NCBI GenBank assembly: GCA_945861755.1
Contig: CAMAVQ010000006.1
Coordinates: forward strand, 1 to 64,000
DNA: 64,000 nucleotides
Direction: 5' to 3'
Source: Gemmatimonas phototrophica
GTDB taxonomy: Bacteria; Latescibacterota; UBA2968; UBA8231
In this document: positions 1,558-54,839 of the stretch, piece after piece
How the letters are laid out: every line of letters starts with the position of its first letter
Position numbering within the stretch: the stretch's first letter is position 1
Position numbers and translations under genes: made by a program
The notes under the pieces: model-generated
Seen by the model: only the letters and a program-made list of their open reading frames with translations
What the model was told of the DNA's origin: nothing
Database searches by the model: none

Positions 1558-2703
1558 TTATTTGACCCAGGTCATATCCTCGCCGCGCACCAGGAAGGAG
1601 CGCTCGTCCCAGCGACCCGGCCGCTCCACTGGCCACTGGCCCGATTCCACCGCCACGTCGAGCGGGTTGGCCCGTGTCTGCAGGGGCAGCTTCACTCGCT
1701 CGCGCATCCGCGCCGATTCGTACACCCCCATCATGATCTCCAGCGCCGCCCTGCCGTGTTTGGCTTCGCCGCGGTAGTCCTCGATCTTGCCTTCGAGCCA
1801 CTCGCAGATGGCATAGGCCTGGCGCACGAAGGCGTCGCCGTAGCCGACGCGGGTTTTCTCGGTAGGCTCGAACACCTGCCAGCCGGCTTTCTTCGAGGTC
1901 ATGTATTTGAGGCTATTGTCGTTGATTTCCATCATGCCTTCGGCACCGTAGATGGAGCAGTTGATACCGCCCCAGGTGCCCAGCTCGTTCTCGATAACCC
2001 CTTCGACCCCATTGGGGAAACCGATGATGCCGCTGCAGCGGTCCTCGACGCGGTGGCCGAAGATATAGTGGTCGGTCTTGCGCTCCACCTGGCCCATCAC
2101 CCATTCGGCCTGGGGATCACCCTGCACGTAGCGCTGGAAGTCGATGCAGTGGGTGCCCCAGTTGAGCATGCCCTGCAACACCGTGGACCACAGCCGGCGC
2201 GGCTGGCCGATGGCCCCGTCCAGCAGCAGGCGTCGGGCCTCTTCCCAGGCCGAATAGAAGCGCCGCTGATGGCCGATGGCCAGTTTGACGTTGTTGCGCT
2301 GGGCGGCGATGATCATCTGCTCGGCTTCACCCACGGAGGCGGCCATCGGCTTTTCGCAGAGCACCAGCTTGGGCTGGCGGGCGCAGGCGGCGATGGTCAT
2401 CTCCGCGTGCTGGGGGTCCCAGGAGCAGACGCTGACGATGTCGAGATTTTCTTTGTCGAGCATCTCGCGGTAGTCTAGATAGCGCTTGGCAGGGGGGACA
2501 CCGAAATCCTCGCCGTAGGCCTTGAGGGAACCGGGATGGATGTCTCCCAGGGCGACAATCTGGGTGTGCTCACACTCGCTCCAGCCCCGCCCGTGCTCGC
2601 GGGCGATGCGGCCACTGGCGATCACGCCGACGCGGTACTTGGCTTTTCTGGTGGGGCGGGCCTTGGTGGTGGCGGCCTTGCCGGTGCGGGGTTTGGGGGG
2701 CAC
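1558..2703 (-). CDS. Gfo/Idh/MocA family oxidoreductase
   Basis: YRVGVIASGRIAREHGRGW Rossmann start, CEKPMA motif, GTG start after an RBS. Confidence 0.88.
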   Translation of the reverse strand: MPPKPRTGKAATTKARPTRKAKYRVGVIASGRIAREHGRGWSECEHTQIVALGDIHPGSLKAYGEDFGVPPAKRYLDYREMLDKENLDIVSVCSWDPQHAEMTIAACARQPKLVLCEKPMAASVGEAEQMIIAAQRNNVKLAIGHQRRFYSAWEEARRLLLDGAIGQPRRLWSTVLQGMLNWGTHCIDFQRYVQGDPQAEWVMGQVERKTDHYIFGHRVEDRCSGIIGFPNGVEGVIENELGTWGGINCSIYGAEGMMEINDNSLKYMTSKKAGWQVFEPTEKTRVGYGDAFVRQAYAICEWLEGKIEDYRGEAKHGRAALEIMMGVYESARMRERVKLPLQTRANPLDVAVESGQWPVERPGRWDERSFLVRGEDMTWVK

Positions 2704-2788
2704 TTCGTGCTCCTTTCGGATAAGGGCAGCAGGGAAAAGGAAAGATTTTTTCAGCAGACCAAAATAGTAGCCCCCCAAAGAATCCCTG

Positions 2789-5089
2789 TCAATGCCCCGG
2801 CGCAGGTCGGGCGCAGCGAAAGCCGATCGTGTAGTCGAAGCCCTGCCAAGGGTCATAGGCCAGGCGGTTGCTCAGGGCGTAGATGTGGGTGTTCTGGTCG
2901 GCCAGCGAGCCGCCGCGCAGCACCTTCAGCCCCTCGGCGCCAGGGTCGGTATTGCGCGGATCGAGGGCCGGGGCGCGCTGGTAGTAGTCGCGTTCGTACC
3001 AGTCGTCCACCCACTCCCACACATTGCCGGCCAGGTCCATGACCCCGTAGGGACTGGCGCCGGCGGGTTTGGTTCCCACCGGCCAGGTGCTGTCCTGGCC
3101 GCAGCCGTCGCCCCCGTCGTCGATCACGGCCCGCTCGCAGGAGGGCTGCTCGTCGCCCCAGGGGTAGACCCGGCCGTCGCCGCCGCCGGCCTTTTCCCAT
3201 TCGGCCTCGGTGGGCAGCCGCTTGCCGGCCCACCGGCAGAACTGGTCGGCCTGGTTCCAGTTCACCGCGTTGACCGGATGGTGATCCCGGTCGGGTTTGT
3301 CCCAGTTGGTATAGCCCCCATCAAAGGGCAGGCGGTAGGCCGCCCCGCCGCTGTAGGGCCGGGTGCATTGCCCGGTTTCGACGCAGGCGCGGTACTGGGC
3401 CACACTCACCTCGTATTTGTCGAGGTAATAGGCGCTCAGATAGACCGGGCGCCGGGGGCGTTCGTCGCCCTGGCCCCGATCAAAGCCCATGAAAAATTCG
3501 CCGGCGGGGATGAGCACCATCTCGTCAGTGGAGGCCGGGGCCGTGGGGAGGGTGTCGCCCTCGGCGGCTCTGGCCATGCGGTTGCGCACCAGCCAGTCGC
3601 TGACCCCCAGCAGGGCGGCCTCCCCGGCAGGGGGGACGACGGAGGGGGTGGGGGACTGAGGGTCGGCAGAGCGGACGCAGCGCACCCCGATATAAGGGTA
3701 CCAGCGCAGCGGGCGGAAGCGGTAGCGGTTGGCCCCCCGCAGATCGGGATCGGGATCGACATAGTGCCAGGAATTGCCGCGCAGCCCTTTGTGCGTGGCA
3801 GGCTCCTGGTTGCGCGGATTGCGTTGGGGGCTGTGGACATAGTAGTCGGACTGGTACCAGTCGTCCACCCACTCCCACACATTGCCGGCTAGGTCCCGCG
3901 CTCCGTAGACGCTGGTATCGGCCTGCCGCGTGGCCACCGGCCCGGTGCCGTCATAGCCGCAGCCCAGGCCCAGGCCCGCCCGCATCATCACCGCCCGATC
4001 GCAGTTCCCGGCGCCGCCGGGCGGTTCGTCTCCCCAGGGATAGATCTTGCCGGCACTGCCGCGCGCCGCCTTTTCCCACTCGGCCTCGGTGGGCAGGCGC
4101 AGGCCCGCCCACTGACAGTAGCGCTGGGCCTCGTACCAGCTCAGGCAGTTGGCCGGGTGGTCGTCGCGCTCTTTCACTCCCCAGTTGCAGGCCTGGCCCT
4201 GGGCAGGTTCGAGGCAAACGCCGGCTTCCACACAAGCGCGGTACCGGGCCACGGTGACTTCCTGGGCTTCCACATAGTAGGGGTCTAGAAAGACCCGGTG
4301 CTCGGGACTTTCGTCCTGGTACAGCGGGCTGCCCATGGTGAACCATCCTCCCGGCACCCCCAAGAGCAGGGAAGTCTGATCGCCGGGCAGCGCGAGCAGC
4401 ATCTGGTCGGGTTCGACCTGGAAGTGAGGGTCAAAGCCGGGGCTGCAGGGATCTACGCCGGGCAGCGTCAGGGAGCGGATGGCCGGACCCTGCACCTGCA
4501 CGGTGTACTCTCCGCATCCGCGCGACTCGACAGCCGATTTGGGCGCCCTGGAGGGGACGCCGTCGGTCAAGGTGAGCTTGCGGGTGGCCTGGTACGCACC
4601 GGTCTCCAGGTGGTACAAGTACACGCCGGCCCCGGCCCCCCTCCCCTGGTCGTCGCGACCGTCCCAGACGGGCTGGTGCCTGCCTGCCGGCAGCTCTTGG
4701 TCCAGCAGCCGGCGCACCGGGCGGCCCAGCGCATCGAAGAGCAGCAGCCGCACCGGGCCGGCCTCAGCCAGGTCAAAGGGCAGGGTGACCGAAGGGTTGA
4801 AGGGGTTGGGATAGGCCCAGCCCAGGGCGGTGTGGGTCGGCAGCGGGGGCGTTTCTCCCACAACGGTGAAGGGATCGGGAAGGGAGAGGCGGTAGGTCCC
4901 GCCGGTGTCGGCCTGCGCTGCGTAGACCATGCCCGTGGCCTGCGCGATATAGTGCACCTGGGCGTAGGGCACGGGCTGGCTGTCCAGGCTGAGGGTGATG
5001 GTGCCGGTGAGTTCGGCGCTCAAGGCCGGGGCGCTGAGGAGCAGGAGAAGAAGCGGGAGTTTTGCCCTAAGTGCGCTGAGGAAGTACAT
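2789..5089 (-). CDS. Secreted protein with a FlgD-Ig-like domain and two SUMF1 (formylglycine-generating enzyme-like) domains
   Basis: Signal peptide MYFLSALRAKLPLLLLLLSAPALSA; YPNPFNPSVTLPFDL...WDGRDDQGRGAGAGVYLYHLE; two copies of RLPTEAEWEKA...DLAGNVWEWVDDWY. Confidence 0.88.
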   Translation of the reverse strand: MYFLSALRAKLPLLLLLLSAPALSAELTGTITLSLDSQPVPYAQVHYIAQATGMVYAAQADTGGTYRLSLPDPFTVVGETPPLPTHTALGWAYPNPFNPSVTLPFDLAEAGPVRLLLFDALGRPVRRLLDQELPAGRHQPVWDGRDDQGRGAGAGVYLYHLETGAYQATRKLTLTDGVPSRAPKSAVESRGCGEYTVQVQGPAIRSLTLPGVDPCSPGFDPHFQVEPDQMLLALPGDQTSLLLGVPGGWFTMGSPLYQDESPEHRVFLDPYYVEAQEVTVARYRACVEAGVCLEPAQGQACNWGVKERDDHPANCLSWYEAQRYCQWAGLRLPTEAEWEKAARGSAGKIYPWGDEPPGGAGNCDRAVMMRAGLGLGCGYDGTGPVATRQADTSVYGARDLAGNVWEWVDDWYQSDYYVHSPQRNPRNQEPATHKGLRGNSWHYVDPDPDLRGANRYRFRPLRWYPYIGVRCVRSADPQSPTPSVVPPAGEAALLGVSDWLVRNRMARAAEGDTLPTAPASTDEMVLIPAGEFFMGFDRGQGDERPRRPVYLSAYYLDKYEVSVAQYRACVETGQCTRPYSGGAAYRLPFDGGYTNWDKPDRDHHPVNAVNWNQADQFCRWAGKRLPTEAEWEKAGGGDGRVYPWGDEQPSCERAVIDDGGDGCGQDSTWPVGTKPAGASPYGVMDLAGNVWEWVDDWYERDYYQRAPALDPRNTDPGAEGLKVLRGGSLADQNTHIYALSNRLAYDPWQGFDYTIGFRCARPAPGH

Positions 5090-19313: not shown

Positions 19314-19340
19314 GCCACGCCCCAACGTATGGGGCGTGGC
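19314..19340. terminator. Hairpin between convergent genes (bidirectional terminator or REP-like palindrome)
   Basis: gccacgcccca-acgta-tggggcgtggc, perfect 11-bp stem; no U-tract. Confidence 0.5.
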
Positions 19341-19363: not shown

Positions 19364-20128
19364 CTAGTCCCCGATCCCCACCTTCTTCAAGTGCGCCACG
19401 CAGCGGGCCACCTTCTCGGCCAACTCGTCGGGCTTGCTGGGGTCGAAGGTGCCGCCTTCCAACTCCATCGCATAGGCCCCGGTATACCCCCCTCCGTGCA
19501 GCACCTTATCCGCCGCCGCAAAGTCGACAATGCCCTCGCCGAAGACCGGGAATTTGCCGTCGCGGAACCCGCCGAAGGTGTCCTTGAGATGTACACCGCG
19601 CACATAGGAAACCGCTTTCTTCAACTCGGCGATGGTGTCCACCTGCTCGTTGTAGTAGTAGATATTGGCCGTGTCGTAGTTGACCCCCACCCAGGGGTGG
19701 TTGACCCCCTTCATGGTCTCGGCCATCTGATCGCCATTCTGGCACAGGTCAGGGTGGGTCTCCATGGCCACGAAGACCTCGTGGGCGCCCACCGCGTCTC
19801 CCACCCGGCGCAACCTATCGTAGGCTTCGGCCTTGGGCATCTTCTCGCCGGCATGTGCACTGACAAACATATAGCGCGCGCCCAGTTCGGCGGCCTGGGC
19901 GGCCTGGGCCCCGATGGTCTTGGGCAGGTTGTCGTCTTCCAGGGGACAGGGCACCTGGATCGAGGTGACCGACAGCTTGCAGGAACCCAGCGCAGTTTTG
20001 ACCTGAGCTGCGGTGGTGTCCTCATCCCATACCAGTTCGAGTCCTTCGATGCCCATCTCCGCCACTTGGGCAAAAGGCAGGTAGAGTTTCTTCAGCGAGC
20101 CAATGCGATAAGAAAGGGTATTCGACAT
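19364..20128 (-). CDS. Xylose isomerase-like TIM barrel (sugar phosphate isomerase/epimerase)
   Basis: MGIEGLELVWDED, GVNYDTANIYYY, VRGVHLKDTFGGFRDGKFPVFGEGIVDF. Confidence 0.88.
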   Translation of the reverse strand: MSNTLSYRIGSLKKLYLPFAQVAEMGIEGLELVWDEDTTAAQVKTALGSCKLSVTSIQVPCPLEDDNLPKTIGAQAAQAAELGARYMFVSAHAGEKMPKAEAYDRLRRVGDAVGAHEVFVAMETHPDLCQNGDQMAETMKGVNHPWVGVNYDTANIYYYNEQVDTIAELKKAVSYVRGVHLKDTFGGFRDGKFPVFGEGIVDFAAADKVLHGGGYTGAYAMELEGGTFDPSKPDELAEKVARCVAHLKKVGIGD

Positions 20129-20183
20129 GAAACTGCTCCTCATATAAAGGTGACGATAACAAACCCAAATTGATTCTGGTCGA

Positions 20184-20195
20184 GTGAATTTTCAC
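20184..20195. promoter_or_regulatory. GTGA-N4-TCAC dyad (gtgaattttcac)
   Basis: Same half-sites and spacing as the palindromes at 51127 and 51216; about 145 bp upstream of the predicted start site of the 20308 promoter. Confidence 0.4.
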
Positions 20196-20307
20196 CATTA
20201 TTCTCCCTCGGCGCAAGGGCGCACCCCCCGTCCCACTGGGCCACCCCTGTCGCAGGTTTCAGGCGATCGCGACCCGTCTGCCTAGGCCTCCAGAGCAAAA
20301 GATCCGG

Positions 20308-20323
20308 TGGCATAACCCTTGCT
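20308..20323 (+). promoter_or_regulatory. Candidate sigma54 (-24/-12) promoter
   Basis: TGGCATAACCCTTGCT, GG-N10-GC, against consensus TGGCACG-N4-TTGCW. Confidence 0.6.
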
Positions 20324-20381
20324 CTTTTGCTATCACCCTGCCCTCTTCGTCCGCGTGTGATCCTCAAAAGGTACGGGCGTT

Positions 20382-21353
20382 ATGACTGAACCAGTCCTCA
20401 CTCCCCGCCAGCGTTTCAAACACGCCCTGGAACGCCGGCCGCCCCTGCCAGGCATGCGGGTGCCCCACTTCGAGCTGGTCTTCTTTTTGACCATGGAGGC
20501 CTTTGGCAAGGTCCATCCCTCCCATCGCAACTACCACCAGTGGGACCAGATGGAGGAGAAGGAGCGCCAGCTCCACCGCCGCGACATGGCCGAACTCTTC
20601 ATCGCCACCGCCCGCCGCTTTGAACACGACGCCATCTTCCTCCACCCCAACCCCGGCCGCGAGGACGAGGTGCTGCGCCTGATCGAACTGGTGCGCGAAA
20701 TCAGCGGCGACGCCTATTTCCTGATGTTGCACGGCGACGCCACCTACAGCATCCCCTCGGGCACAGCCATGGAGGCCTGGTGCGCCCGGCTGGTGGAGGA
20801 ACCCGAGCAGGTCAAGGAAGAGGCGGCGCGTTTGGTGGACCAGGCCCTGGAGCGGGGGGCGCGCCTCAAGGCCCATGGCGGCCTGGACGGCTTTGCCCTG
20901 TGCGCCGACTACTGCTTCAACACCGGCCCCTTCCTGCGCCCCGAGTGGTTCGAGGAATTCGTCACCCCTTACCTGACCCGGCTGATCCGCGGCTACCGCG
21001 AGCAGGGCCACTACGTGATCAAACACACCGACGGCAATATCATGCCCATCCTCGACCAGTTGCTGGAGGGCAAACCCCACGCCCTGCACTCCCTGGACCC
21101 GCAGGGCGAGGTGGATCTGGCGGTGGTGAAAAAACAGGTGGGCGGGCAGGTGTGCCTGATCGGCAATGTCAACTGCGGCCTGCTCGATTCGGGGACCGAC
21201 GAGGAATGCCTGGCCTCGGCCCGTTACGCCCTGGAGAGCGGCATGCCGGGGGGTGGATACATCTTCTCCACCAGCAACTGTGTGTACACCGGCATGGCCC
21301 TGCGCCGCTACGAGCTGATCCTGGACCTGTGGCGGCGCGAGGGCAACTACTGA
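20382..21353 (+). CDS. Uroporphyrinogen decarboxylase-like (URO-D superfamily / methyltransferase) protein
   Basis: TPRQRFKHALERR start, YVIKHTDGNIMPILDQLLE, HSLDPQGEVDL. Confidence 0.85.
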   Translation: MTEPVLTPRQRFKHALERRPPLPGMRVPHFELVFFLTMEAFGKVHPSHRNYHQWDQMEEKERQLHRRDMAELFIATARRFEHDAIFLHPNPGREDEVLRLIELVREISGDAYFLMLHGDATYSIPSGTAMEAWCARLVEEPEQVKEEAARLVDQALERGARLKAHGGLDGFALCADYCFNTGPFLRPEWFEEFVTPYLTRLIRGYREQGHYVIKHTDGNIMPILDQLLEGKPHALHSLDPQGEVDLAVVKKQVGGQVCLIGNVNCGLLDSGTDEECLASARYALESGMPGGGYIFSTSNCVYTGMALRRYELILDLWRREGNY

Positions 21354-48699: not shown

Positions 48700-48715
48700 T
48701 GGCATACCCCTTGCT
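48700..48715 (+). promoter_or_regulatory. Candidate sigma54 (-24/-12) promoter
   Basis: TGGCATACCCCTTGCT, GG-N10-GC; 15/16 identical to the element at 20308. Confidence 0.6.
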
Positions 48716-50692: not shown

Positions 50693-51040
50693 TTATTCGC
50701 TCGGCAACCCGTGCTCCCGGAGCAACACCTGCACAAAGGGCGATCCCCCTCGCAGGACCATGCCTTTGGCAGCCCATGCCTGCAACAACTCAATGCCCGC
50801 CGAATCGATGAACTCCACTCCAGTCAGTTCCAGCACTAGACGTTCGGTCTCCCGGAGATGGCCTTCGCCCTCGGCGGCCAGCAGTGCTACGTCCCCTTCT
50901 GCCAGCCAGCCCTCGAGTTTCAGCACTACTTCCTCTCGGGTCTGTGTTGTTGCCGTTATCCGTATCACCACCACCTCCAAGGGCTCCGTTTGCAGCTGAG
51001 TCCTTCCTATATCGAATACCGTGCCAACAAAAACAGCCAC
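50693..51040 (-). CDS. STAS-domain protein (anti-sigma-factor-antagonist-like); true start may be ~50971
   Basis: LVLELTGVEFIDSAGIELLQAW STAS motif with phosphorylatable Ser; ggagg before GTG at ~50971. Confidence 0.78.
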   Translation of the reverse strand: MAVFVGTVFDIGRTQLQTEPLEVVVIRITATTQTREEVVLKLEGWLAEGDVALLAAEGEGHLRETERLVLELTGVEFIDSAGIELLQAWAAKGMVLRGGSPFVQVLLREHGLPSE

Positions 51041-51126
51041 CTGAGCGCAATGGCTCAGACGGCTGTTTATATGGATCTTAGATAGTTCTTAAGTGGTTGG
51101 CCTTTGAGATAGTATTCTAACTATTC

Positions 51127-51321
51127 GCGTGATATATCACGCAGCTGCTCCTTTCAAAATCAGGCTCTTGCTCCCAAGGGTTCTCTAAACAGCAGTTTGC
51201 GCCGAACAAGGCCCCGCGTGATATCTCACGCAAGGCCAACTTCAAGGGGATTTTACTTCTACTCATAGTGCTGTTTCTACACCTCTTGCAGGTACCCAAC
51301 ACCTCAGGTGAGATCTCACGC
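51127..51321. promoter_or_regulatory. Three palindromic operator/UAS-like sites with 89-90 bp centre spacing
   Basis: GCGTGATATATCACGC (51127-51142, perfect), GCGTGATATCTCACGC (51216-51231), AGGTGAGATCTCACGC (51306-51321). Confidence 0.75.
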
Positions 51322-54300
51322 ACCCTCCCGACTGATGCCCAGCTTCTTCATCCGGCTGCGCAGGGTCGCCTCATGCAAACCCAACACCGCTGCCGCCCCC
51401 TCTGCCCCGCGAATCCGCCCTCCGGTCCGCGCCAAGACCTCCTGGATATAGCGCCGCTCGTGCTCTTCCAAGGACACGAAGTCCTCCACCGCCCCGGTGC
51501 CCCGGCTTCCCACCTCCAGATCCTCCACTCGGATTCTATCCCCCTTGCACACGATCACCGCCCGCTGGATCACGTGTTCCAATTCCCGCACGTTCCCCGG
51601 CCAGGCATAGGCCTGCAGTGCCTGCTCCACTTCCCAGGTCAGGGGCTGCACCTTCTTGTTCAGATGGGATGCCATGCGGGCCAGGAAGTACGCGGCCAGC
51701 AGAGGGATATCCTCCTGCCGTTCCCGCAGGGAGGGCACTTCGATGGGATAGACCCGCAGGCGGTAGTAGAGGTCCTCCCTAAAGGTGCCCGCCGCCACCA
51801 TCTGTTCCAGGTTTCGGTTGGTGGCTGCCACCACCCGCATGTCCGCCCGCAGGGTCTTCTGCCCCCCGACCCGCTCGAATACCCGCTCTTCCAGCACCCG
51901 CAGGATTTTGACCTGGGCCGCCGGGGACAGGTCGCCGATCTCATCTAGAAAGAGGGTGCCGCCCTCGGCCAGTTCCACCCGCCCCAACTTCCGGGTGCTG
52001 GCCCCGGTGAAGGCACCGCGCTCGTGGCCGAAGAGTTCGCTCTCTACCAGACCCTCGGGCAGGGCCCCGCAGTTGACCTGGATGAAGGGGCCGTTTTTTC
52101 GCCCGCTCCAGGTGTGGATCGCCCGGGCCACCAGTCCCTTGCCGGTGCCGGTCTCCCCCTGGACCAGGGCGGTCAATTCGGTCCGGGCCACCTCCTGGAC
52201 CTGGGCCAGCAGTAATTGCAGATAGGGGCTCTTGCCGACGAAGTCGCCCGGCGTGCCGCCCGCCCGCAGCACCTCGGTCAGGGCCGCGACCCGAGGATCC
52301 GGGATCACCGTTAGCTGAACCTCTGCTACCTCAGAATAGGCCAAATCCCGGTCCACGGCCTGCACTTGAAAACGGTAGGCCCCCAGGGGCAGGTCGCGGT
52401 ATTCCACCCGCCGGGCGTGGGTGTTTTGCCAGGTATCGTCATGTCCTATCAATCGGTAGCGGTAGACCATGGCCTCGGGGCGGGTCTTGAAACTGATCCC
52501 GTGGAACTCGCCGGCGATGAGGCGCGCCCCGACCGGGACCTCGATCTCCGTCCTGCCTTCGTAGCGGCGGTCCGCCACCACGGCATCGATGAAGATGGGC
52601 GGAGGAGATGGTGAGGGCGGACGATAACGCGTCAGGCCGCTGGCCGTGCCAAACCAGAGATCCCCGCCCCGATCCTGCAGGACCGCGCTGACCTGGTTGC
52701 CCGCCAGACCATCCGCCGCGGTCAGGGTCTGCACGACTTGTCCGTCGAAGCAGTTCACGCCGCCTCCGCGGGTGCCAAACCAGATGCGGCCGTCCTGGCT
52801 CTGGATGATCGTTCCGACGGCATTGCCTGCCGGTTGCGGGGCAGCGAAGGTCTGCCACTGCTCACCGTCGTAGCGACTCACCCCGCCGGAGGTCCCGACC
52901 CAAATCGTCCCCTCGCAGCTCTGAAAGACCACCTCGACCCAGTCGTCCGCTAAGCCATCGGCGGTGGTGAAGGTCTGCCATTGTCCTCCCTGGTAGCGGT
53001 TGAGCCCTTGCTGGGTGCCGACCCAGATCGCGCCCTGCTGGTCCTCGAAAAGCGTGAGTGCGTAGTTGCTCGCCAGGCCGTCGCGGGTGGTGAAGGTGGT
53101 CCAGCGTTGCCCTGCGAACCGGTTTACCCCGGCACCCGGGGCGGCGACCCATAACGCCCCGTCCCGCGCCTGAAGGATACCCACTATGCCCTCGCCCAGG
53201 GACAGGCCCTCTAGCGCGAAGGAGGTCCAGGTCTGCCCGTCGCGGCGACTCAGGTGGGTGGCGGTCCAAACCCAAATACCGCCCTCCTGGTCCGTCCGCA
53301 GGCCGCGTATGGGTTGGGCGGCCAGGCCATCGGGGAGGGCAACAGGAATCCAGGTCTGCCCGTCGTAGCAGCGCACGCCGTCGGCTGTGTGTCCCCAGAG
53401 GGTACCCTCGCGGTCCTGAAGTATGGAGTAGATCCCACGGGCCGCCACGCTATCTAGGCTGGCGGTGGGGGTGCAGGTCTGCCCATCGCACCGGCTCACG
53501 CCACCGGCCGTGCCCACCCAGAGGGTATACTCGCGGTCCTGAAACAGCGAGTGGATATGGTTTGACTGCAGGCCATCTTCGGTAGTGAAGGTGGTCCAGG
53601 CTACCGCCTCGTACTGGCTAAGTCCTCCACGGGTGCCAAACCAGAGCGAACCTTCGCGATCCTGAAACATCGCTTCCACCGAGGTGTCTGCCAGGCCGTC
53701 GGTGGCAGTGAAGGTGGTCCAATGCTGCCCGTCATAACGACTCACCCCCCCTTCCGTGGTGCCCCATGTTTTCGTGCCTACCCAGAGCGACCCGTCCTGT
53801 GCTGGCAACAGGGACCAGACCCGGTTGGAGGGCAGACCGTGTTCGGTGGTGCTCACCGACCAGTGTTTTCCGTCGTAGCGGGTCAGACCCCCCGCCTCTG
53901 TACCCCAATTTCCGGTCGCCAACCAGAGCACCCCGTCCCGATCCTGGCAGATCGCCCACACCTCGTTGCCGGCCAGACCGTCGGCTGCGGTGAAGGTGGT
54001 CCAGGTTTTCCCGTCGAAGCGGCTCAGGCCCCCTTCCCAGGTGCCGAACCAATAGGTGCCATCCCGGTCCTGGAACATCGATTGCACGTTGTTGCCGGCC
54101 AGGCCGTCGGCCGTGGTGAAGGTAGTCCAGGCTTTTCCGTCGAAGCGGCTCAGGCCCCCTTCCCAGGTGCCGCACCAGAGCACCCCGTCCTGATCCTCCA
54201 GCATCGAGGAAACCATGTTGTGCGCCAGGCCGTGCTCGGTGGTGAAGGTGGTCCAGGTCGAACCATCGTACCGGCTCACGCCGAAGGTCGTCCCGACCCA

Positions 54301-54564
54301 GAGCGCCCCGTCGCGGTCGAAGAGCATGGCATTCACCTTGTTGGACACCAAGCCATCCTTGGGAGTGAATTGGGTGAAGCGGTGCCCGTCGAAGCGGCTC
54401 ACCCCGCCGGCGAAGCTGCCGATCCAGAGCGCCCCGTCCCGGTCCTGAAGGATAGCGCGCACACTTCCCCCGCAGGAGAAGCCGTCAGTGGCATCGTAGG
54501 TGCGCCAGCGGCCGCGCCCTTGTCGGGTGGGACCTGCTTGAGTCAGTGAGGAGCTGCGATCCAT
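51316..54564 (-). CDS. Sigma54-dependent transcriptional activator with N-terminal Reg_prop propeller and Y_Y_Y domain
   Basis: ~15 x DGLxxNxVxxxxxDxxGxLWxGTxxGxxRYDG repeats; AAA+ GETGTGKGLVARAIH, ERGAFTGAS, LFLDEIGDLS; Fis-type HTH GAAAVLGLHEATLRSRMKKLGI. Confidence 0.92.
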   Translation of the reverse strand: MDRSSSLTQAGPTRQGRGRWRTYDATDGFSCGGSVRAILQDRDGALWIGSFAGGVSRFDGHRFTQFTPKDGLVSNKVNAMLFDRDGALWVGTTFGVSRYDGSTWTTFTTEHGLAHNMVSSMLEDQDGVLWCGTWEGGLSRFDGKAWTTFTTADGLAGNNVQSMFQDRDGTYWFGTWEGGLSRFDGKTWTTFTAADGLAGNEVWAICQDRDGVLWLATGNWGTEAGGLTRYDGKHWSVSTTEHGLPSNRVWSLLPAQDGSLWVGTKTWGTTEGGVSRYDGQHWTTFTATDGLADTSVEAMFQDREGSLWFGTRGGLSQYEAVAWTTFTTEDGLQSNHIHSLFQDREYTLWVGTAGGVSRCDGQTCTPTASLDSVAARGIYSILQDREGTLWGHTADGVRCYDGQTWIPVALPDGLAAQPIRGLRTDQEGGIWVWTATHLSRRDGQTWTSFALEGLSLGEGIVGILQARDGALWVAAPGAGVNRFAGQRWTTFTTRDGLASNYALTLFEDQQGAIWVGTQQGLNRYQGGQWQTFTTADGLADDWVEVVFQSCEGTIWVGTSGGVSRYDGEQWQTFAAPQPAGNAVGTIIQSQDGRIWFGTRGGGVNCFDGQVVQTLTAADGLAGNQVSAVLQDRGGDLWFGTASGLTRYRPPSPSPPPIFIDAVVADRRYEGRTEIEVPVGARLIAGEFHGISFKTRPEAMVYRYRLIGHDDTWQNTHARRVEYRDLPLGAYRFQVQAVDRDLAYSEVAEVQLTVIPDPRVAALTEVLRAGGTPGDFVGKSPYLQLLLAQVQEVARTELTALVQGETGTGKGLVARAIHTWSGRKNGPFIQVNCGALPEGLVESELFGHERGAFTGASTRKLGRVELAEGGTLFLDEIGDLSPAAQVKILRVLEERVFERVGGQKTLRADMRVVAATNRNLEQMVAAGTFREDLYYRLRVYPIEVPSLRERQEDIPLLAAYFLARMASHLNKKVQPLTWEVEQALQAYAWPGNVRELEHVIQRAVIVCKGDRIRVEDLEVGSRGTGAVEDFVSLEEHERRYIQEVLARTGGRIRGAEGAAAVLGLHEATLRSRMKKLGISREGA

Positions 54565-54647
54565 AGCCACACTCTCTGGGTACATCGATTGCGCGCAATT
54601 CGCCCGACGGTATCTTACATCCATATGGGCGCCAAGAACAAGTTCGG

Positions 54648-54839
54648 ATGCGCGAGCATATGGTGGACACACTGAAAGACAGACCCGGGGTCATGGCGCC
54701 GCCGCCGCTGCTCTACCTGCTGCCCCTGGCGCTGGTGGTAGTGCAGAAAGGGGTGATCGCCCGCGAGGAGGCCTATCTGGAGCGGAAGTTTGGCGAGGAT
54801 TACCTGAACTACAAGGCCCGCGTCCAGAGGTGGATCTGA
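54648..54839 (+). pseudogene. Internally deleted isoprenylcysteine carboxyl methyltransferase (ICMT)-like remnant
   Basis: N-terminal-type DRPGVMAPPPLLYL joined directly to C-terminal-type LPLALVVVQKGVIAREEAYLERKFGEDYLNYKARVQRWI. Confidence 0.65.

Follow-up and report, generated by a model that had tools for sequence, protein, structure and literature searches.

The stretch of DNA under study comprises 64,000 nucleotides (the window in the following) and contains a sigma54-like promoter ahead of a gene of the URO-D family. Upstream of this promoter is a dyad, GTGA-N4-TCAC, which resembles palindromic sites near 51 kb, and a preliminary description had suggested that the promoter was a distant member of the same sigma54 regulon. 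Two questions arise: whether the promoter is genuine, and whether the dyad connects it with the 51-kb locus. A literature search on sigma54 in Latescibacterota yielded nothing relevant, and the library searched contained no published sigma54 regulon for the lineage. The genome containing the window (4.39 Mb, 255 contigs) was compared with relatives of the same genus; all genome-wide counts are from pattern searches, each with a reversed-pattern control.

The sigma54 promoter

20308..20323, + strand: sigma54 (-24/-12) promoter TGGCATAACCCTTGCT, strict match; predicted start site at about 20334

The consensus of sigma54 (-24/-12) promoters is TGGCAC-N5-7-TTGCT (PMC12316311). At 20308-20323, the pattern TGGCAY-N5-TTGCW, with the -24 GG and the -12 GC ten bases apart, is matched exactly; the C of the -12 GC is at 20322, from which the start of transcription is predicted at about 20334. 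The strict pattern was found 23 times in the own genome (reversed control: 2) and 127 times in five genomes of the genus (control: 4), clearly more often than by chance, with P of about 3e-4 per intergenic region. The genome encodes rpoN (PF04552, E 9e-58, contig C113) and about 30 genes for AAA+ sigma54 activators (PF00158, 33 matches, about 28 of them strong). The intergenic region yielded neither a sigma70 promoter nor a terminator nor an Rfam family. All five genomes retain the sigma54 site in the orthologous position with minor changes, and the flanks have diverged. The orthologous sites are as follows:

G001: AGGCATAACCCTTGCT
G002: TGGCATAGGCCTTGCT
G003, on two contigs: AGGCATTACCCTTGTT or TGGCATTACCCTTGTT, with a degenerate -12 element
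G004: TGGCACAGCCATTGCT

A fortuitous -24/-12 match, the gene being served by some other promoter, might be suspected from G003, where the operon is broken and the -12 GC has decayed to GT. However, the control rates put the share of chance matches at about 9% in the own genome and 3% in the genus, and GG-N10-GC is unchanged in G000, G001, G002 and G004 despite diverged flanking DNA; a chance match would thus appear very improbable. Outside the genus, no clear sigma54 site was seen directly upstream of the orthologues in G007, G011 and G025; sites resembling GGTACG-N4-TTGCT, about 120 bp upstream of the orthologue in G008 and G012, are suggestive only. By all available computation, 20308-20323 is a genuine and ordinary sigma54 promoter, as had been proposed, and would be expected to depend on sigma54 in the cell.

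A further strict sigma54 site, TGGCATACCCCTTGCT, with almost the same sequence as that at 20308, is located at 48700-48715, 63 bp ahead of a gene (48779) for a coiled-coil protein of 127 aa; neither a dyad nor a conserved block was noticed upstream of it.

The URO-D gene and its operon

20382..21353, + strand: gene of the URO-D family (PF01208, E 6e-18) encoding 323 aa; second in the ancestral operon
20362..20381, + strand: 3'-terminal remnant of the first URO-D gene, otherwise deleted (95% match to the last codons of that gene in G002)

The assignment of the downstream gene to the URO-D family was borne out; its product is a distant relative of the MtaA/CmuA corrinoid methyltransferases, far below the curated cut-offs of NCBIfam. 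Orthologues are 93% identical in G002 and 92% in G004, and the named relatives at this level of protein identity (92-93%) are Candidatus Latescibacterota genomes. Both G002 and G004 possess an intact first URO-D gene between the promoter and the second gene; in both, its stop codon and the beginning of the second gene overlap, and in G004 it encodes 357 aa. The remnant in the window, 20 bases long, is situated directly upstream of the start codon of the remaining gene. Judged from these alignments, the first URO-D gene is deleted in the window genome, and the promoter of the relatives drives a two-gene operon. In G003 the two URO-D genes are both disrupted, and only fragments of the second gene are left in G001.

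Two further loci may be mentioned. On contig C6 of G003 (L102, 2212-5501), the first URO-D gene is divided between reading frames, and the second contains an interruption of about 1.3 kb. In another family, a URO-D orthologue is located directly downstream of rpoN (L103, contig C110 of G025, 2610-4226); a strict sigma54-like match was found with this rpoN at 4184, near the open reading frame start.

The upstream dyad

20184..20195, no strand: dyad GTGAATTTTCAC, most likely fortuitous or belonging to the divergent gene, and not an operator shared with the 51-kb locus
19364..20143, - strand: divergent sugar-isomerase-like gene (AP_endonuc_2 TIM barrel; PF01261, E 1.4e-26), likely start at about 20130

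The dyad had been placed about 145 bp upstream of the expected start site; its letters are present as described, and its centre was computed at about -144 relative to the predicted start. A genome-wide search for the dyad near sigma54 promoters, which the preliminary description had proposed, showed no enrichment. GTGA-N4-TCAC occurs 18 times in the genome (reversed control: 14) and 69 times in the genus (control: 65). Only one of the 18 dyads, that at 20184, is near a sigma54 site (score of at least 0.9 within 400 bp), and relaxed sigma54 scoring around all 18 yielded no other promoter. Dyads with up to two mismatches numbered 13 upstream of the strict promoters of the own genome and likewise 13 in downstream control stretches. 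Within the window, 6 dyads stand against 0.55 expected; half of the excess consists of the three sites at 51 kb, and two of the remaining three dyads (7772, 34629) are within open reading frames. According to arithmetic from the genus counts, strict promoters with a dyad 80-200 bp ahead of them would be expected about 0.04 times over the genus, so that the coincidence of dyad and promoter is mildly unusual, though it was chosen after the fact.

Conservation of the dyad is uneven. Its left arm reads ATGA in G001 and GAGA, or is gapped, in G003; the whole element is absent in G002. In G004 the dyad persists as GTGAATTGTCAC, and about 230 bp are inserted between it and the promoter. Four of the five copies in the relatives show an almost unchanged right half, AATTTTCACCAT, and something may bind there, or at the dyad kept in G004.

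The element around the dyad, with this right half, could perhaps serve the divergent isomerase gene as an operator or as part of its promoter; the start of that gene is about 55 bp away. The right half is conserved in G001 and G003 and nearly so in G004, together with the isomerase gene; in G002 the divergent gene is missing from its place upstream of the operon, the dyad region is lost along with it, and the sigma54 promoter stays. Since the right half is nearly invariant with the isomerase gene and missing without it, it may belong to that gene. On the other hand, no sigma70-type promoter was found at this place, the comparison comprises only five closely related copies, and G002 represents a single rearrangement; such a role is therefore possible, but rather unlikely. 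Most likely, the resemblance seen in the 20184 dyad is due to chance, or the dyad is at most a part of the divergent gene.

An interspersed palindromic repeat, CGCCCCAACGTATGGGGCG, was noticed at 19318-19336 of the window. It has 15 copies in the own genome and 121 in the genus, versus 0 for the reversed control; one copy is inside the G004 insertion, between enhancer block (see below) and promoter.

The 51-kb activator and its operators

51316..54672, - strand: sigma54 activator with Reg_prop propeller, Y_Y_Y, AAA+ sigma54 domain and HTH_8 (Pfam)
51127..51321, no strand: three 16-bp operators of this activator, at 51127, 51216 and 51306, in steps of 89 and 90 bp
51011..51026, - strand: degenerate -24/-12 site TGGCACGGTATTCGAT (GG-N10-GA) before the STAS gene, score 0.77

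The 51-kb operators, GCGTGATATATCACGC, GCGTGATATCTCACGC and AGGTGAGATCTCACGC, are 16-mers of the form GCGTGATATMTCACGC, which includes outer GCG/CGC letters and ATAT as the inner core. Contig C92 of G004 encodes the homologue closest to the activator (60% over 625 residues); the sites beside this homologue are GCGCGATATGTCGCGC (twice) and ACGCGATATGTCGCGC (once), and they are located after the stop codon of the activator and before a STAS-like gene with a clear sigma54 site, TGGCACAGGGGTTGCG, the position of which is that of TGGCACGGTATTCGAT in the window. A third module, also in G004, contains GCGTGGTATTACACGC twice, 90 bp apart. Between modules the changes in the operator arms are symmetrical (T to C together with A to G), the hallmark of a true operator, and they show the outer GCG/CGC letters to be important; three modules of the genus retain these letters. 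The specificity of such activators may thus be readable from the sequence, since the operators differ symmetrically between modules.

The arrangement recurs as a module: a propeller-AAA+-HTH_8 activator is followed by 16-bp operators in tandem, spaced by 80-90 bp and beginning at the activator stop codon, and then by a GGCAC promoter and a STAS gene. Its loci are 51011-54672 of the window, L295 (G004 C92, 2676-4801) and L294 (G004 C148, 2150-2255); in the last of these the activator gene was not seen, as the contig ends. A terminator-like hairpin, AGCCATTGCGCTCAGGTGGCT, with a T-rich stretch after it (51035-51055), directly precedes the 51-kb promoter, and has a counterpart in L294.

The same half-sites and spacing had been ascribed to the dyad at 20 kb and to the 51-kb sites. 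This is correct for the eight fixed letters only; the outer GCG/CGC and the inner ATAT are missing from the 20-kb site, GAGTGAATTTTCACCA. It differs from the 16-mer GCGYGATATRTCRCGC by six mismatches, and 337 of the 63985 positions in the window match equally well. For the 16-mer, no second locus was found in the own genome at 0 mismatches.

For the 51-kb activator to bind the 20184 dyad and activate the 20308 promoter, about 31 kb away, as a distant member of one regulon, one could cite the identity of the eight letters and their spacing, the position near -144, which is possible for an enhancer, and the retention of the dyad in G004, the genome with the closest activator homologue. However, the operators of that homologue are GCGCGATATGTCGCGC, which the G004 dyad, GTGAATTGTCAC, would not fit; the operator letters just named are lacking at 20184, and genome-wide enrichment is absent. 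Furthermore, G001 and G003, which have lost the left arm, keep the 20-kb promoter without a full-length 51-kb activator; only matches of about 50% at the AAA+/HTH level (residues 804-1115) were found there, and no full-length orthologue. The inference of a distant regulon is not supported, and activation of the 20308 promoter by the 51-kb activator through the dyad would seem extremely unlikely.

A conserved block upstream of the promoter

20230..20260, + strand: block of 31 bp, GTCCCACTGGGCCACCCCTGTCGCAGGTTTC, conserved, at about -104 to -74; putative binding region of an activator

Between dyad and promoter, 25 of the 31 columns of this block are invariant in six copies from the genus, compared with 6 of 44 in the spacer between block and promoter. 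In G002 the block is identical in all 31 positions, though the DNA upstream of it is unrelated. A search with the block core for a motif shared with other sigma54 promoters found it only at the 20-kb locus in each genome of the genus (three weak matches, in G002 only). The block would appear to be a better candidate for the activator site than the dyad; its conservation could partly reflect short divergence, since the members of the genus are fairly close. We tentatively consider, with less than even confidence, that the block is an enhancer with a single target, bound by a sigma54 activator not described before that acts solely on the URO-D (corrinoid-methyltransferase-like) operon, and that the genus is losing this operon piece by piece while promoter and enhancer persist.

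Enhancers are often multiple, and the dyad, with its perfect 5+5 symmetry and conserved right half, might serve another sigma54 activator as a second, weaker site beside the block. Yet the symmetry is not conserved, the motif is not repeated at other sigma54 promoters, and chance alone would give 2.5 perfect 5+5 dyads in this intergenic region, against one seen. A second site of this kind is improbable, and the block remains the preferred candidate.

Proposed regulation of the URO-D gene

In the ancestor of the genus, sigma54-RNA polymerase would have transcribed a two-gene URO-D operon from the 20308 promoter. In the window genome only the second URO-D gene would be transcribed from it, because the first gene was deleted. 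One of the about 30 AAA+ activators probably opens the promoter, acting in trans from the 31-bp block centred near -89. The dyad at -144 would be due to chance or to the divergent gene, and would not be an operator of the propeller-type activator at 51 kb, whose own operators adjoin its gene. This joint account of a real promoter, a deleted first gene, activation in trans through the block and a dyad without operator function appears likely to us; it draws on the promoter and its conservation, the lack of conservation of the dyad, the different operator at 51 kb and the deletion, all of which can be read from the sequences. The original observation as a whole is partly confirmed, and its first interpretation partly supported.

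The analysis distinguishes a sigma54 promoter that is real from a regulon link that was tempting but false. A dyad of four plus four letters can mislead, and the operator became clear only after comparison with the sites of a homologue. In addition, a conserved candidate enhancer is now available from an uncultivated Latescibacterota-like lineage that is rich in sigma54 activators.

Comparison with known systems

The 20308 site resembles known sigma54 promoters in its GG-N10-GC core, its TGGCAT and TTGCT elements, its distance of 58 bp from the start codon and the presence of rpoN in the genome; there is nothing unusual in it, the start site being a prediction. Compared with sigma54 enhancers (upstream activating sequences), the 31-bp block, at -104 to -74, is inside the range of upstream enhancer distances described for Desulfovibrio (PMC4641369). 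It differs from them in its weak symmetry (CCTG-TCG-CAGG; CTGGG-N4-CCCTG with one mismatch) and in its occurrence once per genome, whereas the 20184 dyad is symmetrical but not conserved. With the propeller-AAA+-HTH_8 system at 51 kb, which has adjacent tandem operators and a STAS gene, the dyad has eight operator letters in common; the operator of that system, however, is the full 16-mer, of which the outer and inner letters are wanting at 20184.
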